A DNA stretch of 14,585 nucleotides from Candidatus Zixiibacteriota bacterium. GTDB taxonomy: Bacteria > Zixibacteria > MSB-5A5 > GN15 > PGXB01. The translations under genes were made by a program, and so were the position numbers. Position 1 is the stretch's first letter, and each line of letters begins with the position of its first letter. This document shows positions 826-9,802 of the stretch, piece after piece. The notes under the pieces are model-generated. The model worked only from the letters and a program-made list of their open reading frames with translations. It made no database searches and was not told the origin of the DNA. Where the stretch lies: contig JAAERC010000561.1 of NCBI GenBank assembly GCA_024230695.1, forward strand, positions 1-14,585, read 5' to 3'.

Positions 826-3477
826 TTATTTCAGAAGTACCATTTTCTTAGTCGCACTGAATTCGTCAGTAGTGAATTTGTAGAAATACATTCCACTAGC
901 AACATCAGTAGCATCCCAGATAACCTGGTAGTTACCAGCTTCACTGTATCCTGAGAAGTCCTTAACCAGCTGACCAGAAACGTTATAGATGGAGATGTTC
1001 CAGTTAGAAGCAACTGGTAAAGCATATCCAATAACGGTTTCAGGGTTGAACGGGTTAGGATAGTTCTGCAAGAGAGCAAAGTTATCCGGTACAAGCTTCA
1101 TAGCAACTTCGAGCTGAGCACCGAAATAATCGGAGGCTTCAACACGAACCAGATTGGCATCACCTTCAACGCTGAAAATACTACCAGCACTGAGAACTTC
1201 ACGTCCAATGTTATAAACAAGAACATGAGTATTACCATTAATATAACCATGTCTAATAGTCATATTATTGGCATTATCAGCGAGAGTAGGAAGAATTTCA
1301 TTGTCAAAGACAAACAGAGCCGCACCAACTTCAGTTCCACTCAGATTAACATTGTTGTCAGTGACTTCAATGGTGATCTGTTCTGGAGCAAGCTTGCCAA
1401 GGTTATCAGCATAAGGAAGAGCATCGCCAATGATGATTCTTATGAGATAAACAAGGTCAGCAACTGAAAGCGGTGTGCCATCAGCATTAATATCTGTGGC
1501 CGCAGTCTGACCAGCAGGATTAATAGTGAAGGCCGCTCCACCAGCAATAAAGTAGTTGGTGAAGACAACAGCGTCTGCAACTTCATTCATAATACCATTC
1601 AGGTTGATATCACCACGATCATCAATTTCTTTCTTACAGATGATCTTGACGAAACCATTTTCAAAGATAACCGCGCCAAGCGGTCCCTTGAAAACTTCTT
1701 CTTCTTCTGGATCGCCAGCCTGAACGATATCATAACAGTCTTCTTCCGGACCATAGTAACCAAAGTCACCATCGTCTATGATCTCTCCCCAATCAGGATC
1801 AATAACCTGGTTGGCCAGATAGAGGAAGTTACCAGTAGTATCTGAAAGGGTGTTATCGCCACAGTCGCGCCAGTAGAAACGAATTGGCACAATCTGACAT
1901 TCGTAATTCAGATCACTGGAAACCTGGAAGTTCATATAAGCCAGGTCAGCATCTACTCCACCATAAACATGGTCATTGGTGTTAAGAATACCATCATTGG
2001 TTTCTCTCAAACCGACGATACGCAGTAAGCCTGTTGGGCAACCGCCACCGCAGTTATCGACAAAACGATAAGTGAAGTATTCAAATTCTTCAAGATTTCC
2101 TTCGGTGTCAGTTAGAGCCGAGCCCGGGGTCACTAATAAAGCGGCCAGAGCTGAAGCGTCATAAGCAACGAGGAAATCAAAACCACCAATAGGATCAGGA
2201 CCAACGCCAAGCGGATTCATTGTAATCGAAACAGTTGCAGTTGAGCCCATCAAGACGCCTTTACCTTCATCGCCAAGTTCATCTTCGATGTCAACATAGA
2301 AACCAGTGACATGGATGTCAAAGCATAAGGTATCAGCATTTTCAGGACTGCAAGGTGTGCAAGTTTCTGCGCCATCATCAACAAGAATACAAAGGGTGAA
2401 ATCACCAGTGTAGCCCATGTCAAATCCAGCAATATCCCAGCTCCATTCACCCGTAGGACCGTCAACAACAAGTCCGGTACCAAAAGTGGTCGGGCCATCA
2501 AAGCTAAGCATTGAATAATTAAGAGCTGAAGGACCAAGATATGGTCCCTGATCTTCGGCATTTACGCCGCCAATTAGCTCAATACCCAAAGTGGTATAAA
2601 TCACGTCTGTAACCGGAATGTCGCCTGTGACGTTGATAACAACATCAGCATCGTCTTTCCAGCCAGCCCACATCTCATCGCCAAATAGTGGCGGAGTGTT
2701 CTGGACACAAACGTAAACTTCGCAACTATCGGCATCGCCACATTTATCGGTCGCAACAACGGTGAAGTAGTTATCACAAACATCTTCTCCGCCGGTCGCC
2801 CAAGTAACGTCACCGGTAAAAGCATCAATAACTGCTGCTGAAGGTGAATCGCCTACGAGACTAAATAGAACAGTCTCACATGCATCAAGATCCTCAAATG
2901 TTATACCAAATGTAACTGTTTCACCAAAGTGGACAGTCTGATCATCAGGACAAGTGATTTCAGGAAATTGATTAACTATTGTTAACAAGCCGTCGTCAAA
3001 ATCAGGAGTAATCTCAACAATAGGATCACAACCAACAAACAACGAACCATGCGTAAACGGATCATCGACAGTAGCACTGACTACAGTAATAGCTCCTGTG
3101 CAGAGATCTTCAGTATCAAAATGAAGGGTTCCGATTGTGGTTGTGCCAGCAGTAATGCAGGCATCAGCCAAAACGTCGCCCATATAGCCAGCAACACGAA
3201 CCACATTACCATCAATGATAGTAGTGGTGGAAAGCGTTAAAGCGGCTTCAGTAAATGTAAAACTGCTAAAATCTCCGCCAACTTCAAAGATTGCCTCGAA
3301 AGCGCCGAGATTATCTATGCTAGTCACATAAACGCTCATATCAGCTGTTACACAACGAGGGACATCTTTGTTCTCAAACGATATCTCGTAATCCTGCGCA
3401 GATGCGAACGAATACGTGAAAAGGAGTAAGAATGAAGCCAGCAACAAAGATAAATACGATTTTCTTTTTTGCATCAT
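826..3477 (-). CDS. Large secreted protein with cohesin-like domains, internal dockerin and C-terminal T9SS-type sorting tail
   Basis: An 883-residue exported protein. Residues 1-28 form a signal peptide: basic MMQKRK, a hydrophobic leucine-rich core, then ASAQ. Residues 29-168 look cohesin-like, 172-260 and 262-391 are cysteine-containing Ig/cadherin-like segments, and about 394-590 is a second cohesin-like beta segment. Residues 621-690 are a dockerin type I-like pair of Ca-binding repeats (RGDINLNGI, then TDINADG). About 695-800 is another beta domain. Residues 802-883 are a typical Por-secretion/FlgD-like tail: NYPNPFNPET, then YNVSGQLV, then GMYFYKF, ending KKMVLLK. Such tails direct export by the type IX system in Bacteroidota and occur widely in FCB candidate phyla. 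The likely site is the cell surface or outside the cell; ligand and role are unknown. ATG ATG at the start is preceded by AAAGGAG at good spacing. A long leader and its own promoter lie upstream. Domain limits between the signal peptide and the dockerin are approximate. Confidence 0.88.
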   Translation of the reverse strand: MMQKRKSYLSLLLASFLLLFTYSFASAQDYEISFENKDVPRCVTADMSVYVTSIDNLGAFEAIFEVGGDFSSFTFTEAALTLSTTTIIDGNVVRVAGYMGDVLADACITAGTTTIGTLHFDTEDLCTGAITVVSATVDDPFTHGSLFVGCDPIVEITPDFDDGLLTIVNQFPEITCPDDQTVHFGETVTFGITFEDLDACETVLFSLVGDSPSAAVIDAFTGDVTWATGGEDVCDNYFTVVATDKCGDADSCEVYVCVQNTPPLFGDEMWAGWKDDADVVINVTGDIPVTDVIYTTLGIELIGGVNAEDQGPYLGPSALNYSMLSFDGPTTFGTGLVVDGPTGEWSWDIAGFDMGYTGDFTLCILVDDGAETCTPCSPENADTLCFDIHVTGFYVDIEDELGDEGKGVLMGSTATVSITMNPLGVGPDPIGGFDFLVAYDASALAALLVTPGSALTDTEGNLEEFEYFTYRFVDNCGGGCPTGLLRIVGLRETNDGILNTNDHVYGGVDADLAYMNFQVSSDLNYECQIVPIRFYWRDCGDNTLSDTTGNFLYLANQVIDPDWGEIIDDGDFGYYGPEEDCYDIVQAGDPEEEEVFKGPLGAVIFENGFVKIICKKEIDDRGDINLNGIMNEVADAVVFTNYFIAGGAAFTINPAGQTAATDINADGTPLSVADLVYLIRIIIGDALPYADNLGKLAPEQITIEVTDNNVNLSGTEVGAALFVFDNEILPTLADNANNMTIRHGYINGNTHVLVYNIGREVLSAGSIFSVEGDANLVRVEASDYFGAQLEVAMKLVPDNFALLQNYPNPFNPETVIGYALPVASNWNISIYNVSGQLVKDFSGYSEAGNYQVIWDATDVASGMYFYKFTTDEFSATKKMVLLK

Positions 3478-3898
3478 TATAATGCTCCTTTAAACAATTT
3501 AAAGGTTCATTAAACTAAATTAAGTAATAGGTATCTTTTAAATCAGATTTAAAAAATATCCCATTAGATTCCGAACTTGTGCTACAGACGAGGTGTCGGA
3601 TTAACCTCGCCTCAATCTTTCTATAAAAAGATTACAATCTTCAAATTTATAAGAAGTCTGAATAAACCAGAAGTCTTAAAGAACTTGAAAATGTTCTTTA
3701 AAAAGAAAGGATTAAGCTTTGTTTTTGGAAATATTAAAATGATTACAAGATGTTCCCATCCTATCACCATCTTAAAATATTTTAAAGGCTTGTCGATAAG
3801 AGCTTATGAAAACTGTAAGCTTATAACCAGTATAACCTTACAAAAGGTGCGTCAGCCGCTTAACAGAAGTGATTCTATAACACAACTATTCCCTGGAC
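3478..3898 (-). promoter_or_regulatory. Long, hairpin-rich 5' leader of the secreted-protein gene
   Basis: About 420 nt separate the predicted transcription start (near 3898) from the ATG at 3477. Local perfect hairpins include a GC-rich 6-bp stem, CGAGGT 3589-3594 with ACCTCG 3604-3609; a 7-bp stem, 3614-3620 with 3627-3633; and a 9-bp stem, 3676-3684 with 3693-3701. An 8-bp direct repeat, AGAAGTCT, occurs at 3652-3659 and 3669-3676. A Shine-Dalgarno AAGGAG (3485-3490) precedes the start. I do not recognise a known riboswitch class, and no hairpin has an adjacent U-tract, so regulation is only a possibility. No credible protein gene is seen in it. Confidence 0.4.
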
Positions 3899-3904
3899 AG
3901 CCCC

Positions 3905-3932
3905 TATATAACATATAATTCCTATTTGTCAA
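3905..3932 (-). promoter_or_regulatory. Sigma70-type promoter for the secreted-protein gene
   Basis: On the minus strand a perfect -35 TTGACA (3927-3932) is followed after 16 bp by TATATA (3905-3910), giving a start near 3898. The same arrangement (TTGACA, 16 bp, TATATT) occurs before the mrp-like gene at 14133-14160. It is the best promoter match between 3478 and 4629. Confidence 0.65.
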
Positions 3933-4231
3933 GAATTATTTTAATATAATTCAAAATAATCGCAAATACTATCATTCGTAGTAATACAATTAGTGAAAAT
4001 GACCCAAAATACGACACAAAATTAATACTCATATTCGCGATTATTTTATCACAAACCATCAATTTTTCTATAAAACTGTTCATAATCAATCGATCAGCCC
4101 AGCTCTCAACGCCATATTTGATATCTTGAATTTGTCAAAATCTCAACCGATCCAGACACAGAATATTCAAACCTAGATATAGCAATTAGCCTCAGAATTT
4201 TCCATATCAATCTCCCCAAATATATCAACTA

Positions 4232-4247
4232 TGTGATTTTTTTCACA
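4232..4247. promoter_or_regulatory. CRP/FNR-family operator-like palindrome, site 1
   Basis: TGTGATTTTTTTCACA is an exact match to TGTGA-N6-TCACA, the classical cAMP-receptor-protein consensus. The same 16 bp recur at 4547-4562. A weak extended -10 on the minus strand (TGC TATATC, 4176-4184) would place this site near -71, a position used by class I CRP activation, but that promoter is speculative. Confidence 0.6.
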
Positions 4248-4307
4248 AATTCACTCACTTGAACGAAGTAGCATAGAGGATATCAGGTAATCATAAACGA
4301 CCTTATA

Positions 4308-4325
4308 TTGTGATAATTTTCACAA
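4308..4325. promoter_or_regulatory. CRP/FNR-family operator-like palindrome, site 2
   Basis: TTGTGATAATTTTCACAA has perfect 6-bp arms around the TGTGA-N6-TCACA core (4309-4324). Its centre is 77 bp from that of site 1. Confidence 0.6.
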
Positions 4326-4470
4326 TCTCGCCGTTTTGAATTAAAAACATGTCACAATATATTGACATATCAAACAATAAAAAACGGGTAATATATTGAT
4401 TTAAAACCAAAAATATAGGCCTTTTGAAATGGCCATAATCTTCAAAAGATAGCTAATAAGCCATTGTATC

Positions 4471-4488
4471 ATGTGAATTATTTCACAT
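4471..4488. promoter_or_regulatory. CRP/FNR-family operator-like palindrome, site 3
   Basis: ATGTGAATTATTTCACAT has perfect 6-bp arms around the TGTGA-N6-TCACA core (4472-4487). Its centre is 163 bp from site 2 and 75 bp from site 4. Confidence 0.6.
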
Positions 4489-4546
4489 TCTTTCATATAA
4501 ATGAGCCAAAATATATTGAATATATAGTAATATTTGGGATAATTTA

Positions 4547-4562
4547 TGTGATTTTTTTCACA
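4547..4562. promoter_or_regulatory. CRP/FNR-family operator-like palindrome, site 4
   Basis: TGTGATTTTTTTCACA is identical to site 1, including the T6 spacer and the flanking A and AA. It lies 68 bp beyond the stop codon of the outer-membrane protein gene. Confidence 0.6.
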
Positions 4563-4629
4563 AACTCTTATCGTTTTTGCTCCACAAAACAGGCAATTTG
4601 AAGATGTAATTGTAATCAAAGAGAGAGGG

Positions 4630-5931
4630 TTAGAACCTATAAGAAAGGCCTCCTGAGATCAAATACAGGCGGCTATTATCGCTCTGGGTGTCATGAAATT
4701 CGAGATCAAATGACAGCAAAATATCGAGATTCAGGCCGCCAAACAGTCCCATACTTCCAATAATATTGGCTCTTTCAAACAGAAATTCGGACCTGTAAAT
4801 TGACTTATTTCGGTAGATCCGCTTTCCAAATTTGTTTTCAACCATCAAAAACAGCCCTTTCGATCCAAAATAATCGAGCCCAAAAATAGCCATAATTTCA
4901 GTATAATCATCGTCATTTGAGTAATCTGAGTCGGTATTCAGAAGCTCTATTTCGGGTCCTATAAAGGTTGATAATGCCGAAAAACGGCCAAAACTCTGTC
5001 CCGCAAAAAGGCCAAAACGAGCCAAATAATAATCATCATTTATGAAATCATTTTGCGAAAAATTGAAATATTCCACATTTTGTCTGGCCCTCAGAAAGTA
5101 ATTTTCGCCCAGCGGCATCTTGGTATCAGCATTAAGGCTTATCAAAAAATAGTTTTCCCGGTTGTCTAATTGGTTATAATTCCTTGATTCAAATCCCAAA
5201 TCGGCGGTTAAATAAGCCCCAAAAACTGACCCAAAATAGCCCAAATTTCCTCGAAAAAGAGCATAATCAAGTTGGTTTGAATCAGGAACATCTCTGATTT
5301 CAAAGGCCGAATTAAAGGAAATAGAATTAAAATTGGGCGTAAAATAGTTAAAACCGAGCTCAATTCCATATCTTGAATAGTTATAAATATATGATTCAAC
5401 TGTGTCAAATCTGACACTTTCTGAATAGATTTTTGAGCGTAAATCAACCATATTTGAAAGCCGATAACGGTAATCAAAATTGCTATTTAGGATAACAAGC
5501 TCTTCTCCGGGGTCGGCGGTCCCCTTATAATTTTCCTTTAATTCTAATCGAAAATTACCTACAAATTGGCTTTTATGCAAAGTTTTTCCTATCCGTGCGG
5601 TGCCCAAAATACGAAATAATTCACCGGTCTGTTCCCATCCAATTTCATAATTTTGGTCGATATTTTTACTATTTTCGGAATCAGAAGAATAACCCAAATA
5701 GAAAAAACCTTTCTTATCGTCAAGATAATCTTTCTTTAATAAGGCTGATTTTAGTGATGAATCCGGGTCTAAATAGGTATCCTCAGACTCAAGAAAATAC
5801 TCCTGCGAGATATAGTCATATCCAATACCGGCCCGTAAATCAAAACCGCCGGAGCTGTCAGCAATAACAACTCCGGCATTAATTATATAAAGGCTAAGTG
5901 CCAGATATATCAATCGAATTATTTGTCTCAA
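4630..5931 (-). CDS. Putative outer-membrane beta-barrel protein of unknown function
   Basis: I do not recognise the family. The 433-residue product begins with a signal peptide: MRQIIR, a hydrophobic core to about residue 23, and probable cleavage near VIA-DS. The rest is made of short alternating polar/aromatic segments rich in Tyr, Phe, Asn, Asp and Ser (for example YFLRARQNVEYFNF and FGLFAGQSFGRF). It ends LSYRF, with the terminal Phe typical of substrates of the outer-membrane assembly (BAM) machinery. A transmembrane barrel is therefore inferred. The start is TTG at 5929-5931, three bases after the stop of the upstream gene, with GCGGGG as a weak ribosome site; no other nearby start keeps the whole signal peptide. 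This tight spacing implies co-transcription, and probably coupled translation, with the helical-repeat gene, and hence control by the sigma54 promoter at 7009-7025. No terminator is visible after the stop codon. Confidence 0.75.
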   Translation of the reverse strand: MRQIIRLIYLALSLYIINAGVVIADSSGGFDLRAGIGYDYISQEYFLESEDTYLDPDSSLKSALLKKDYLDDKKGFFYLGYSSDSENSKNIDQNYEIGWEQTGELFRILGTARIGKTLHKSQFVGNFRLELKENYKGTADPGEELVILNSNFDYRYRLSNMVDLRSKIYSESVRFDTVESYIYNYSRYGIELGFNYFTPNFNSISFNSAFEIRDVPDSNQLDYALFRGNLGYFGSVFGAYLTADLGFESRNYNQLDNRENYFLISLNADTKMPLGENYFLRARQNVEYFNFSQNDFINDDYYLARFGLFAGQSFGRFSALSTFIGPEIELLNTDSDYSNDDDYTEIMAIFGLDYFGSKGLFLMVENKFGKRIYRNKSIYRSEFLFERANIIGSMGLFGGLNLDILLSFDLEFHDTQSDNSRLYLISGGLSYRF

Positions 5932-5934
5932 ACT

Positions 5935-6966
5935 CTATAACCCCGCCATTTTTTTGGCCTTTCTCAAGCTTATCTGAGCCGCCTTGATATTTGCGGCACA
6001 GGCCTCAGAATCTCCAGAAAGGCAAAAACGCTCGGCTTTATTCAGATTTTTATTGGCGGTTTTGAGCAGTTTTTGAGCTCTTTTATCGCCGCTTTCTCTA
6101 ATTAAACCAGCAACCCGGTCGAAATCTGCTTTTAATCTATTTAGCTTCTCGGTCTGAATATCATTATCCTGGCACATTTCAATAGCTGAATTAAGGCGTT
6201 GATTCATTCCTCGAAGCCTGTTTTCAATTGCCTTAAATCCTATATTATCCTGATTGCTCTTGATCTTTGCAAACCTGTTTCTGACCTCATTCAAGATCTG
6301 TTCGGCTTGATTATTTCCGCAATTTTCCATCAAATTTTCAACGCGAATGATTTTATTTTCAAGTCTTTCAATTTGATTACGTAAACGATCCTGATCCCCA
6401 TTTGTCTCTTTAACCCGTTCTATCAGGCGTTTCAGCCTGTTTTCGACCTGTCGCGACAACTTGAGAGCTGGTCGTAATTGTTGATTATGATAGAATTCCC
6501 GGGCACGACGTTGATTTTCCTGGGCTGTATTATAGAGCGATTCTATTTTATTCCCGACATCGTTGGGCATATTTGCTCTTACTCTATCAAGAAGTTTATC
6601 GGTTTTCTCAATTTGGCGACGAACCAAATTTTCATTTTCATTAGACTGTCGATTGAGTAAAGCGGCATTTTTGGCCTTATCTCTGGCGCTTTTCGTTAAA
6701 ATAATACCACTCGTAAAATTCCCTCCCATTCCCATATTTCGGGACTGAGTTTGAATCTTTTCGGCCAGCTTTAATAACTCACTGCCCTTATCAATTCCTG
6801 AGCTGGAAATTATATTCCGGGCCTGGTTGATAACCTCATTAGTTATTCCAAATTCTTGGTCAAAACGATTTCGAGTCTGCTGTTGTTGTTGCTGGCTATA
6901 AACAAACGATGGTATCAGCACTGCAATAACTAAAGTAACTATTAACATTTTTGGCAATTTTTTCAT
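5935..6966 (-). CDS. Exported all-helical protein with four internal repeats, unknown function
   Basis: The product has 343 residues from the ATG at 6966. That start has AAGGAG six bases upstream (6973-6978) and a proper signal peptide: MKKLPK, a hydrophobic stretch to about residue 20, then FVYSQ. The same frame is open up to an ATG at 7071, but that start would put a non-secretory leader before the signal peptide and lies upstream of the sigma54 promoter, so it is rejected. After a short poly-Gln run (25-30) the mature protein is charged and helical. I see four related units of about 75-80 residues (roughly 41-104, 112-185, 193-266, 271-343). Each has an amphipathic helix, then a hairpin of the pattern LL-x2-A-x3-N-x2-A and A-x7-L-x-K/R-A. 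There is no transmembrane segment or lipobox. A periplasmic scaffold or partner of the neighbouring barrel protein is inferred; no enzyme motif is visible. Confidence 0.8.
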   Translation of the reverse strand: MKKLPKMLIVTLVIAVLIPSFVYSQQQQQQTRNRFDQEFGITNEVINQARNIISSSGIDKGSELLKLAEKIQTQSRNMGMGGNFTSGIILTKSARDKAKNAALLNRQSNENENLVRRQIEKTDKLLDRVRANMPNDVGNKIESLYNTAQENQRRAREFYHNQQLRPALKLSRQVENRLKRLIERVKETNGDQDRLRNQIERLENKIIRVENLMENCGNNQAEQILNEVRNRFAKIKSNQDNIGFKAIENRLRGMNQRLNSAIEMCQDNDIQTEKLNRLKADFDRVAGLIRESGDKRAQKLLKTANKNLNKAERFCLSGDSEACAANIKAAQISLRKAKKMAGL

Positions 6967-7008
6967 TTTTTTCTCCTTTTTTTCTTTTTTCAATTCAGAG
7001 AAATAAAC

Positions 7009-7025
7009 ATCAACTATCGTGCCAA
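7009..7025 (-). promoter_or_regulatory. Sigma54 (-24/-12) promoter for the helical-repeat and barrel genes
   Basis: The minus strand reads TTGGCACGATAGTTGAT against the sigma54 consensus YTGGCACGRNNNTTGCW. Every fixed base matches except the C of the -12 GC, which is A. GG (7022-7023) and GA (7010-7011) are separated by exactly 10 bp. Transcription would start near 6998, 32 nt before the ATG at 6966. The gene immediately upstream encodes a sigma54 activator, which strongly supports the call. Confidence 0.8.
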
Positions 7026-7034
7026 AACAAAAAA

Positions 7035-7049
7035 CAATAGAATCTATTG
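7035..7049. repeat. 15-bp palindrome upstream of the sigma54 promoter
   Basis: CAATAGAATCTATTG has perfect 7-bp arms around one central base. Its centre lies at about -44 from the predicted sigma54 start, closer than enhancer-binding proteins usually sit, so it may instead bind another regulator or an accessory factor. Confidence 0.4.
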
Positions 7050-7097
7050 CACAACAATCACTTATAATCACAAGCCGACTTTCTCAAACCTAATTTC

Positions 7098-7111
7098 GTA
7101 CCTTCTGGTAC
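7098..7111. promoter_or_regulatory. Candidate upstream activator site for the NtrC-type regulator
   Basis: GTACC-TTCT-GGTAC is a perfect 5-bp inverted repeat centred at about -106 from the predicted sigma54 start, within the range typical of enhancer sites. It lies just after the stop codon of the activator gene. It could instead be a weak hairpin, but no U-tract follows on the minus strand. Cognate binding is inferred only. Confidence 0.35.
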
Positions 7112-7121
7112 TATTTGGCCG

Positions 7122-8462
7122 TCAATGTCCACCTATTGAGTGGTATTTCATCCTTGAATATAGTCGCCGCCTCGTAATTTTCAGCAGTTTGGCCGCATCT
7201 GTTTTATTACCACCCGCCTTTTTCAAGGCATCCTCAATCATATGTTTCTCGGCGTCTTCCAGTCCGCTGGATGAATCTTTTGAAAAATCAACATCAAGCG
7301 GTGCCCGCTCAGTTTCATCCTCGATTCCAATATGCTCGATCTCGATCTTTTTTCCTGAGGCCAAAATCATCGCTCGTTCCAATATATTTTTCAACTCTCT
7401 GATATTACCCGGCCAATCGTATGACTTAAGAAGCCCCAACGATTCATCAGATAGATCAGGAAAAGCATATTTTTTTTTCTTAAGAAAATATTCTGATAGC
7501 TCTTTTACATCATCAATCCGCTCGACCAAAGTCGGGATCTCAACCGGGAAAACGTTTAATCTGAAATACAGATCCTCGCGAAAATTGCCGTTTTTGATTT
7601 CCTCTTTAAGGTTCCGATTTGTGGCCGCAATAATTCGAACATCAACTTCCACATTATCAACCCCACCAACCCGAACAAATTGCCTTTCTTCCAAAACCCG
7701 TAACAGCTTGGTCTGCAAAGCCGCTGAGGTCTCTCCTATCTCATCAAGAAAAATTGTACCGCTGTCAGCCAGTTCAAACCGTCCCCGTTTTTGCGAGACC
7801 GCTCCGGTAAAAGCTCCTTTTTCATGGCCAAAAAGTTCTGACTCCAATAATGTCTCGGTCAAAGCGGCACAGTTGACCGCAATAAATGGCTTATCTTTCC
7901 GAGTTGAATTTTCATGGACCATACGAGCGGCCAACTCTTTACCAGTGCCGGAACGACCATACAGTAAAACGCTGGTATCGGTCGGGGCGACTTTTGAAAT
8001 CATATCGAGCATGTTTGCCGCAGCCGATGATTTTCCAATAAAATTATCAGAAGTAAGATTTTTGAGATCGCCTGCCATCAGCTTGGAAAGACCTGAAAGT
8101 GCCTGTTTTTCGGACAACCGTTGACACAATATAACCAGCTCATCCATTGGAAACGGCTTCTGAATATAATCGGCGGCACCGTTTTTCATCGCCTGAACAG
8201 CCGATTCAACCGACCCAAAAGCTGTCATCAGAATAACATCTCCCCCGCCTTTTTGTTTCGCCTTCTCAAGAATATCAATTCCGGTCACTTTGGGCATCGA
8301 AAGATCTGTGATAATTATATCATATGAATGTTCTTCAATAAGTTTCAGTGCCGACTCGGATGAATTGGATGATGTGACAACAAACCCCTCATTATTAAGG
8401 GCGTTTTCAATCAAAACGGTCATCTTCCGTTCATCATCTATAACAAGAATATTTTTTGACAT
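7122..8462 (-). CDS. NtrC-family sigma54-dependent response regulator
   Basis: A 446-residue cytoplasmic activator with the full three-domain layout. Residues 1-115 are a receiver with acidic pocket DD (9-10), phospho-acceptor D53 in TDLSMP, T80 and K102. Residues 140-375 are the AAA+ domain: Walker A GRSGTGKE (169-176), the sigma54-contact loop GAFTGA (216-221), Walker B GTIFLDE (235-241), and the DLYFRLNVFPVEIP stretch. Residues 403-440 are a Fis-type helix-turn-helix (GGNKTDAAKLL). It would be phosphorylated by the kinase encoded two bases upstream and hydrolyse ATP to open sigma54 promoters. The Walker A has Arg where Glu is usual (GESGTGKE); catalytic Lys and Thr positions are intact, so activity is expected. 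AAGGAAA upstream of the ATG serves as ribosome site, inside the end of the kinase gene. A near-consensus sigma54 promoter lies directly downstream at 7009-7025, which is its most likely target. Confidence 0.96.
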   Translation of the reverse strand: MSKNILVIDDERKMTVLIENALNNEGFVVTSSNSSESALKLIEEHSYDIIITDLSMPKVTGIDILEKAKQKGGGDVILMTAFGSVESAVQAMKNGAADYIQKPFPMDELVILCQRLSEKQALSGLSKLMAGDLKNLTSDNFIGKSSAAANMLDMISKVAPTDTSVLLYGRSGTGKELAARMVHENSTRKDKPFIAVNCAALTETLLESELFGHEKGAFTGAVSQKRGRFELADSGTIFLDEIGETSAALQTKLLRVLEERQFVRVGGVDNVEVDVRIIAATNRNLKEEIKNGNFREDLYFRLNVFPVEIPTLVERIDDVKELSEYFLKKKKYAFPDLSDESLGLLKSYDWPGNIRELKNILERAMILASGKKIEIEHIGIEDETERAPLDVDFSKDSSSGLEDAEKHMIEDALKKAGGNKTDAAKLLKITRRRLYSRMKYHSIGGH

Positions 8463-8464
8463 AT

Positions 8465-9802
8465 CTATTTTTCCTTATCGGCAGATGGCAGAGATAATAC
8501 AAACGTCGTTTGTTTTTTATCATCAACTTCGACATCTATTGTTCCGCTCATCGCTTCCATTAGTTTCCGTGTATGAAATAGCCCAAGTCCGGAACCTGTT
8601 GTTTTAGTTGTATAGAACGGCTCAAAAATATTTTTTATTATTTTTTTATCAATTCCGGGGCCATTATCAGATACATATATATGTGTTTTATTTATATAAT
8701 GTTTAATATCCAATTTTATTTCCGGGTTAGTCGAATCAGCCAAGGCATCTGATGCATTTAGAATCAGATTTATAATCACCTGCCGTAAGGCAATCGGATC
8801 AGCCAATACATTATTATTTTTCTTATCTTCTATTTCATTTTTCGATTCAAATTTCAGTAGAATATTTTCATTGTTTAATCGGGGAGCAAATTTGGTAATT
8901 ATTTCAGTAACTAACTCATTTATGTCTATCAGTTTTGTTTTTAGAATCAACTTACCAGAGGCAAAACCGAGGTATCCACTGACTATCTGATTAAGACGAT
9001 CGATCTCCTCTATAATAAAATCAGCCTCCGGTTTATTACTTTCTTTTTTAAGACTTTCTGCCGATGCCCGCATAATCATCAATGGGTTTTTCACCTCATG
9101 TGACACTACCGCCACCATCCGTCCCAGATTTGCCTGCGACTGTGAGAGCATAATCGAGCGTTCGGCCAAACCAATTTTCCTATGGACCATAAAAAACAGT
9201 ATTCCAAATAAAAGACCAAATCCCACTGAGACGGCGGTTGATATATAGAGGGAACGTCGCAGACTAAAAAGATCATCGGTATAGTCAACATCGGCTTCAA
9301 TACCAAGCACAGCCCGGACTTCGCCAGTGCTGTCAAAAAGAGGGGCAAAGGCGGACTTTAGAATAAAATCATCGGTTTGGTAACTGGCCGAAACCGATGG
9401 TAAATATTCATCGCTTCTATTAAAAAAGATAGAGTCGATAGCATCTCTGTTTAGCGAGACTAAATAATAAATAGAATCTTCATCAAATGATGTTGTCACC
9501 AGATAATTATATTCTGTGTCAAGAATAAATACTTCGGACAACGAATCAACCGTTTTGATCTGCTCCAGTTTATCAAGCGCTTTTTCATAGCCAGAGAGAT
9601 AGCCATCGGCAAGAGTAGAAACAGTTTCAGCATCCAGTCCCGACGCCCCCAGTGACACAAGTGAGGTAAGCCGACGGGATAGTTGTTCTTCAAAACTGTT
9701 TTCAGTTTGGGCATAAAACAACCACCAGGTCAGATTCACAATCACTATTAGCAGGCCGGTAAAAAATATCACGGCCAATGAGCGTCGATTAAAAGAATTC
9801 AT
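8465..9802 (-). CDS. Membrane sensor histidine kinase (NtrB/AtoS-like)
   Basis: A 445-residue inner-membrane kinase. It has a transmembrane helix at about 8-30, a periplasmic sensor region at about 31-185, and a second helix at about 185-206. The cytoplasmic core contains the H-box SHEVKNPL with phospho-His H235, the N-box NLILNASDA (345-353), G1 DNGPGI (379-384), the F-box FEPFYTTK (393-400) and G2 GSGLGL (403-408). No separate PAS or HAMP domain is obvious by eye; the periplasmic part, with a VFILD segment and VRAVLGIEAD, could be a dCACHE/PAS-like fold. The stop is two bases from the response-regulator start, so the two are co-transcribed and surely cognate. The signal is unknown, but the sensor faces the compartment where the two downstream gene products should act. 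AGGAG directly abuts the ATG with no spacing, which is unusual; an in-frame TAG just upstream rules out an earlier start. Confidence 0.95.
   Translation of the reverse strand: MNSFNRRSLAVIFFTGLLIVIVNLTWWLFYAQTENSFEEQLSRRLTSLVSLGASGLDAETVSTLADGYLSGYEKALDKLEQIKTVDSLSEVFILDTEYNYLVTTSFDEDSIYYLVSLNRDAIDSIFFNRSDEYLPSVSASYQTDDFILKSAFAPLFDSTGEVRAVLGIEADVDYTDDLFSLRRSLYISTAVSVGFGLLFGILFFMVHRKIGLAERSIMLSQSQANLGRMVAVVSHEVKNPLMIMRASAESLKKESNKPEADFIIEEIDRLNQIVSGYLGFASGKLILKTKLIDINELVTEIITKFAPRLNNENILLKFESKNEIEDKKNNNVLADPIALRQVIINLILNASDALADSTNPEIKLDIKHYINKTHIYVSDNGPGIDKKIIKNIFEPFYTTKTTGSGLGLFHTRKLMEAMSGTIDVEVDDKKQTTFVLSLPSADKEK

Follow-up and report, generated by a model that had tools for sequence, protein, structure and literature searches.

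The window analysed here is a 14,585-nucleotide stretch of contig JAAERC010000561.1 from a Candidatus Zixiibacteriota bacterium, and our subject is a block of four genes on its minus strand, in which a sensor histidine kinase and an NtrC-type response regulator precede two envelope proteins that we call HEL and BAR. The kinase (positions 8465 to 9802; 445 amino acids, aa) has, as read from its sequence, an N-terminal transmembrane segment, a periplasmic domain of about 150 residues and a second transmembrane segment, followed by HisKA and HATPase_c domains (Pfam, 1.1e-10 and 4.9e-23). The periplasmic sensor family is weakly Cache-like at best: dCache_1 gave a weak match in 2 of 46 kinase family members, the window kinase not among them. 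The regulator (7122 to 8462; 446 aa) combines a receiver, an AAA+ domain and a Fis-type helix-turn-helix (Response_reg 2.2e-27, Sigma54_activat 2.5e-71 and HTH_8 2.7e-14, all above the Pfam cut-offs) with the GAFTGA sigma54-contact loop in its translation, the set of features that marks an NtrC-type enhancer-binding response regulator. HEL (5935 to 6966; 343 aa) starts with ATG behind AAAGGAG and is an exported all-helical repeat protein. BAR (4630 to 5931; 433 aa) starts with TTG and is predicted to be an outer-membrane beta-barrel; it ends in an aromatic residue, as is common in such barrels. Gaps of 2 base pairs (bp) between kinase and regulator and 3 bp between HEL and BAR flank a gap of 155 bp between regulator and HEL, within which lie, on the minus strand, a sigma54-like -24/-12 element TTGGCACGATAGTTGATG (7008 to 7025) and a proposed operator (upstream activating sequence) of the regulator (7097 to 7112). 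The -24 part of the element is perfect and its -12 part reads TTGA, the consensus being TTGC; the operator, AGTACC-AGAA-GGTACG, agrees with TGTACC-N4-GGTACA at 10 of 12 positions. A first-pass annotation made from the letters alone had described the four minus-strand genes, the two short gaps and the sigma54-like site, and all of them are confirmed here.

HEL carries an ordinary signal peptide without a lipobox, by reading, and has 32 homologues besides the window protein. For the window protein, Pfam gave only weak helical matches, all below cut-off, and no NCBIfam cut-off was reached; across the family the helical Pfam matches are scattered, none of these families occurring in more than 7 of 69 members. 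Its predicted structure has 10 helices (predicted local distance difference test, pLDDT, 88.9; predicted template-modelling score, pTM, 0.51), and a fold search returned no match at E ≤ 0.001, the top-ranked rows being mostly designed helical proteins. The window BAR has no Pfam match at E ≤ 1, reaches no NCBIfam cut-off and shows no plug or TonB_dep_Rec domain; DUF481, in a single protein, is the sole Pfam match at E ≤ 0.01 among 64 family members. Its model has 20 strands (pLDDT 83.5, pTM 0.72), a count that may be off given an alignment of only 23 rows; few solved barrels, if any, are known to have exactly 20 strands. The nearest solved barrels are mostly transporters (BtuB, FecA, Fiu), a generic similarity at 5-13% identity. 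A PDB sequence search with alignments A1, A2 and A5 found only designed or coiled-coil-like proteins and chance-level matches. (A2 comprises 23 of 24 sequences, a fragment being omitted; A3, A4 and A6 comprise 68 of 71 HEL, 63 of 65 BAR and 45 of 57 kinase references, respectively, each with the window protein.) The models thus agree with the helical and barrel characters first assigned to the two effectors, and the statement that neither belongs to a recognised family stands, no known family's cut-off having been reached in Pfam, NCBIfam or the family scans.

We followed these genes through 132 genomes of the phylum, a set for which completeness is not stated, so that absences are soft. A first HEL profile matched 75 genomes; rebuilt from those loci, it matched 81, of which 76 at E<1e-20 (the 75 and G126), and at that threshold HEL is nearly always single-copy. 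The BAR profile matched 73 genomes. By comparison of the two lists, 71 genomes have both proteins and 54 neither; BAR occurs without HEL in two (G077 and G093, partial matches) and HEL without BAR in five, namely G047 and G082, where contigs end, and G045, G126 and G129. G061, counted among the 71, matches the BAR profile only weakly and at another place in its genome. Of 76 regions fetched from 75 genomes, 55 have kinase, regulator, HEL and BAR in this order on one strand, and 11 further regions are intact up to a contig edge (four lacking the kinase, four BAR, and three the kinase and regulator). Kinase, regulator and HEL are present with no BAR after HEL in three regions (L088, L089, L103), other genes stand between the kinase/regulator pair and HEL in two (L052, L079), and HEL-BAR lacks an adjoining pair in five. 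In L052 (genome G054), genes of 181 and 607 aa separate regulator from HEL, which itself contains a single in-frame TAA. Of five named records with HEL, four bear the title Candidatus Zixiibacteriota and the fifth that of Ignavibacterium, although by genome it is grouped with them; the title of this last contig, DYGG01000018.1 (L005), Ignavibacterium sp., looks wrong, its genome falling in the same phylum as the Zixiibacteriota record G004. A final protein search with BAR alignment A4 gave 20 proteins, 19 of them already found and one new (P0058), the named ones all Zixiibacteriota. One protein from the HEL search (P0033) is labelled Acidobacteriota in its source. None of the papers searched combines Zixibacteria with sigma54; the text seen of a salt-lake survey mentions Zixibacteria together with two-component, outer membrane and periplasmic terms.

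Upstream of HEL, counts refer to 73 of 77 loci, four (L052, L108, L109, L110) being left out where HEL is broken or cut. Of these, 67 contain the pattern GGCAY-N5-TTG in the 150 bp preceding HEL, where its frequency in these loci would predict 0.49; it lies 39-99 bp before the HEL start. Taken alone, the window element is a one-mismatch site; it is the count of 67 against 0.49 that argues against chance. Five of the six loci without the strict element (L057, L067, L069, L073, L076, L079) read GGC-N7-TTG and differ at the A or at the C/T position. The canonical sigma54 arrangement of GG at -24 with a 10-bp spacing to -12 is present at the 67 loci and in the window, and because this spacing is built into the search pattern only its frequency counts as evidence. 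The first-pass annotation had proposed that a gene-neighbourhood search should find the four genes and the sigma54-like site recurring together, and through the phylum they do.

A dyad search of the HEL upstreams found GTACC-N4-GGTAC in 39 of 72 loci, the next independent dyad reaching 11. Its extended form, TGTACC-N4-GGTACA at a minimum of 10 of 12 positions, is present in 68 of the 73 HEL upstreams compared with 0.6% of 1980 background windows, a figure that is partly circular because the consensus was derived from these upstreams; the lipoprotein and phylum-wide counts given below are more independent. Loci are also related by descent, so their counts are not independent events. The median distance from the operator to the -24 GG is 76 bp, and most operators lie 73-105 bp upstream of the -24/-12 promoter; in the window the operator is 73 bp upstream of the element and is the sole site with at least 10 of 12 matches. 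On this comparative evidence, TGTACC-N4-GGTACA is likely to be the operator of the regulator.

Homologues lying apart from the kinase and regulator were what the first-pass annotation had named as evidence against its module. Such loci exist, in the five genomes whose HEL-BAR has no adjoining pair (L092, L095, L098, L100 and L101; BAR is cut in L095, and only about 1.5 kb of upstream sequence is present in L101), and by that rule they would count against it. Even so, the sigma54-like element is kept upstream of HEL at all five, and a regulator orthologue is found elsewhere in each genome. Each of these genomes has its best regulator match on another contig, at 48-51% identity (41-46% for the next best by score), and in a tree of 86 regulators the five unlinked proteins fall inside the clade of linked regulators (support 100/98), next to the linked G128 and G129 proteins and separate from 14 paralogues. 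A kinase adjoins the unlinked regulator in L176 and L177, lies about 0.5 kb away in L180 and is partial in L178; L179 ends at the regulator. The operator is weaker at the five HEL loci (9, 9, 10, 10 and 10 of 12). Since the element is present where the pair is missing, it is not a by-product of the end of the regulator gene, and sequence comparison indicates that the pair and HEL-BAR continue to occur in the same genomes where their adjacency has been lost.

The operator also leads to a second probable target. In the 2.6 Mb of G004 its exact form occurs twice, once ahead of HEL and once ahead of a lipoprotein gene that is unlinked and has a GGCACGAGGTTTGA element at the same spacing; one of three exact sites in G089 and one of six in G030 likewise stand before genes of this family with the element at that spacing. 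The family, LP, comprises proteins of about 360 aa with a conserved FGGYTATDEAPAFGDP stretch and GxFxGxW repeats, and three members tested had no Pfam match below E 0.5. An LP profile matched 96 of the 132 genomes at E ≤ 0.001, and we examined the upstream sequence of the best copy in 82 of these, one per genome. Operator (at least 9 of 12) and element at the right spacing precede 59 of the 82, compared with 0 of 900 shuffles and 0 of 90 reverse strands; a looser rule gave 64 of 82 versus 6 of 1800 shuffles. Seven seed genes had been chosen partly via the operator, four of them among the 59 and three among the misses, and without seeds the count is 55 of 75. The arrangement occurs at 51 of 62 LP genes in HEL-bearing genomes and at 8 of 20 in genomes without HEL. 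The genomes closest to the window, G001 and G002, show a 10/12 operator before LP together with the element variant GGTAC-N5-TTGA. Position, too, ties LP to the system: it lies divergently on the far side of the kinase/regulator pair from HEL in seven genomes, one gene further away in G126, and beside an unlinked kinase in G125, G130 and G131 (in G130 the kinase was identified by reading). An operator of at least 10 of 12 precedes the kinase in 7 of 55 linked loci (L093, L094, L102-L106), which belong to the same seven genomes with divergent LP; these operators near the kinase start may serve LP, the kinase or both. Many genomes hold a second, more distant LP copy, and none of eight tested (L296-L303) had operator and element.

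We then searched all 132 genomes with a composite pattern of operator and element, which matched 85 times in 61 genomes; the reversed control matched once. By coordinates, 40 matches lie before LP, 33 before HEL and 12 elsewhere. Composites occur in 53 of 76 HEL-bearing genomes and 8 of 56 without HEL, and at both HEL and LP in 17. Seven of the 12 other matches, in six genomes (G022, G030, G031, G032 twice, G033 and G052), stand before genes of a third family, whose products have about 100-160 aa, a signal peptide and a DxDGDG stretch. In G056 the composite precedes an exported protein of 181 aa with a match to Metal_resist (PF13801, 9.3e-9, 36 bits against a cut-off of 29.2), a family to which we take ZraP to belong; its CpxP/Spy matches are weak and far below the cut-offs. 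Two composites in G076 precede other lipoprotein-like genes, and those in G060 and G003 run into contig ends. Between kinase and LP, G126 has a lipoprotein-like gene with a sub-threshold LTXXQ match. The module is accordingly not self-contained, as the first-pass annotation had called it: its operator also stands before the mostly unlinked LP genes, the DxDGDG family and one Metal_resist protein, and the pair itself is unlinked in five genomes.

The element departs from the sigma54 consensus at one base. After TTG, the HEL promoters have A in 45 cases, T in 16, C in 5 and G in 1 (n=67) and the LP promoters A in 34, T in 21, C in 3 and G in 1 (n=59); the C of the canonical -12 GC is thus found in 5 of 67 and 3 of 59, respectively, and the window has A. 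TTGA as the -12 sequence of sigma54 throughout the phylum was considered and rejected. Among TGGCAC-N5 sites in six genomes, 30 of each kind being inspected, TTGC sites were promoter-like more often than TTGA sites (14/30 versus 5/30; Fisher p 0.025), and two of the five promoter-like TTGA sites were regulon members. By reading, the promoter-like TTGC sites include FtsX-like permease genes and one response regulator. In the six genomes as a whole, TTGA sites numbered 57 against 26 for the reversed pattern and TTGC sites 42 against 35, so TTGC overall is hardly over-represented. In this small sample, loss of the -12 C seems to be a property of this regulon. The text seen of PMC4551910 states that promoters with activator bypass do not strictly conserve the -12 C, and cites in vitro experiments in which this C holds basal transcription in check. 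Loss of the C would be expected to make the promoters leak and to supply a basal amount of protein before induction.

Some TTGC sites have operator-like sequences of their own. FtsX-like permease genes of three genomes (L128, L130, L142) stand behind TGGCAC-N5-TTGC with an 8/12 operator-like match 75-77 bp upstream, a pattern that perhaps reflects a sister regulator with a related operator. Two further TTGC sites, L123 (G030) and L144 (G028), have operator-like matches of 10/12 and 9/12 at 80 bp and lie before exported-looking proteins, which are possible further regulon members.

Taken together, we consider it probable from these comparisons that the window contains the central locus of a sigma54 envelope regulon extending across the phylum, of the ZraSR-like stress type and with unstudied effectors. 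Sequence comparison supports locus, operator, promoter and regulon membership, and control of HEL-BAR and LP by the kinase/regulator pair is very likely. We infer direct binding, a phosphorelay and sigma54 use, in a scheme in which the membrane kinase would sense a condition outside the inner membrane and phosphorylate the regulator; this would bind TGTACC-N4-GGTACA upstream of the -24/-12 promoter and remodel sigma54 polymerase there, inducing HEL, as a periplasmic helical repeat protein, together with BAR in the outer membrane. Separate promoters of the same build would induce LP, joined in some species by a small exported DxDGDG protein or by one of the Metal_resist (ZraP-type) family. The role would be that of a ZraSR-type envelope-stress response maintaining the outer membrane, and on the stress response as such we lean only slightly to its side. 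The general kind is known, namely an NtrC-type two-component sigma54 regulon; what is new are the unstudied envelope effectors and the unusual promoter feature.

The closest comparison is ZraPSR of E. coli and Salmonella (ZraS-ZraR and zraP), which, in the text seen of published accounts, shares a sensor kinase with an NtrC-type regulator, exported targets and sigma54 promoters; the Metal_resist protein behind the promoter in G056 adds to the likeness. According to the parts seen of these papers, ZraR controls zraSR and zraP and plays a part in envelope stress (PMC4987338), has few direct targets in E. coli (zraSR, zraP and mgtA) and is active in, among others, ethanol and phosphate-depleted media, which is related to envelope stress (PMC7657598). 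The present system differs in that Metal_resist/LTXXQ is not among the 25 families listed for members of the 343-aa HEL, in having a barrel and a lipoprotein, in its -12 sequence, and in falling short of the ZraR and ZraS equivalog cut-offs (380.2 versus 760 and 118.5 versus 479 bits). The N-terminal domain of BB0323 from Borrelia is also among the closest known systems.

Several observations weigh against our reading. The exact palindrome alone is not over-represented (46 sites versus 62 reversed in 13 genomes); what marks it out, on the sequence comparisons, is its place beside the element and not its genome-wide frequency. The exact composite is absent from 23 of 76 HEL-bearing genomes, and the strict operator-element pair from 23 of 82 LP genes, 18 of them even under the looser rule. 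The sigma54 gene, matched once each in 10 of 12 genomes tested, was unmatched in the other two, whose assemblies may be incomplete. The NCBIfam cut-off for AtoC, like those for ZraR and ZraS, was not reached by the window regulator and kinase; the sequences of HEL, BAR and LP point to no function; and the envelope-stress role leans on the one Metal_resist gene of G056 and the one sub-threshold LTXXQ-like lipoprotein of G126.

Doubt about sigma54 itself centres on the -12 C, the usual mark of its promoters, which is absent from 62 of 67 HEL and 56 of 59 LP sites, so that GGCAY-N5-TTG[AT] might be the site of another regulator or the promoter of another sigma factor. Against this stand the kept -24/-12 spacing, the adjoining GAFTGA activator, the operator at enhancer distance and the minority of TTGC at the same place, and we regard it as very improbable. 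A tentative further idea, doubtful in our judgement, keeps sigma54: activator-dependent promoters would have been maintained phylum-wide with A or T at -12 so that the polymerase gives a fixed basal leak and the two-component system does no more than raise it, HEL, BAR and LP then forming an undescribed assembly for outer-membrane maintenance or transport.

What the system does could also differ from a stress response. BAR might be a specific outer-membrane channel for nutrient or metal acquisition, with HEL and LP as periplasmic or surface partners and a kinase that senses a small solute through its Cache-like domain; the transporters among the nearest solved barrels, the faint Cache signal and the Metal_resist protein in one genome would fit. 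We find this unlikely, since BAR matches neither a plug nor a TonB-receptor family and its barrel similarity is generic. TonB-dependent receptors and large barrels of the MtrB type also differ from BAR in strand number (22 or 26, against the 20 predicted), at 5-12% identity. A somewhat smaller chance attaches to a surface structure (matrix, adhesion or secretion) in which HEL-BAR exports or anchors LP and DxDGDG proteins. The proposed targets that we read look exported or lipoprotein-like, and the parts seen of published work describe a comparable case in the PEP-CTERM system, where PrsK/PrsR form a sigma54-related two-component system with exported proteins and a PEP-CTERM gene is RpoN-dependent. 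The PEP-CTERM regulator and kinase cut-offs (TIGR02915 and TIGR02916) were missed here, at 369.6 versus 502.6 and 81.7 versus 300 bits.

Elsewhere in the window, a minus-strand gene (826 to 3477) encodes a protein of 883 aa that ends in a sorting tail for type IX secretion (PF18962, TIGR04183) and also matches cohesin, though below cut-off; in L088, an 862-aa gene (2571-5159) behind HEL resembles it at both ends.

For an uncultured phylum, the regulon proposed here would mean a defined set of one regulator, one operator and at least three protein families without known function, whose membership assigns them to the envelope and allows them to be tested as a group. The non-consensus base conserved at -12 would moreover turn a point made for E. 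coli, that the C restrains basal transcription (in the text seen of PMC4551910), into an evolutionary test, in which a whole regulon appears to have given that C up.

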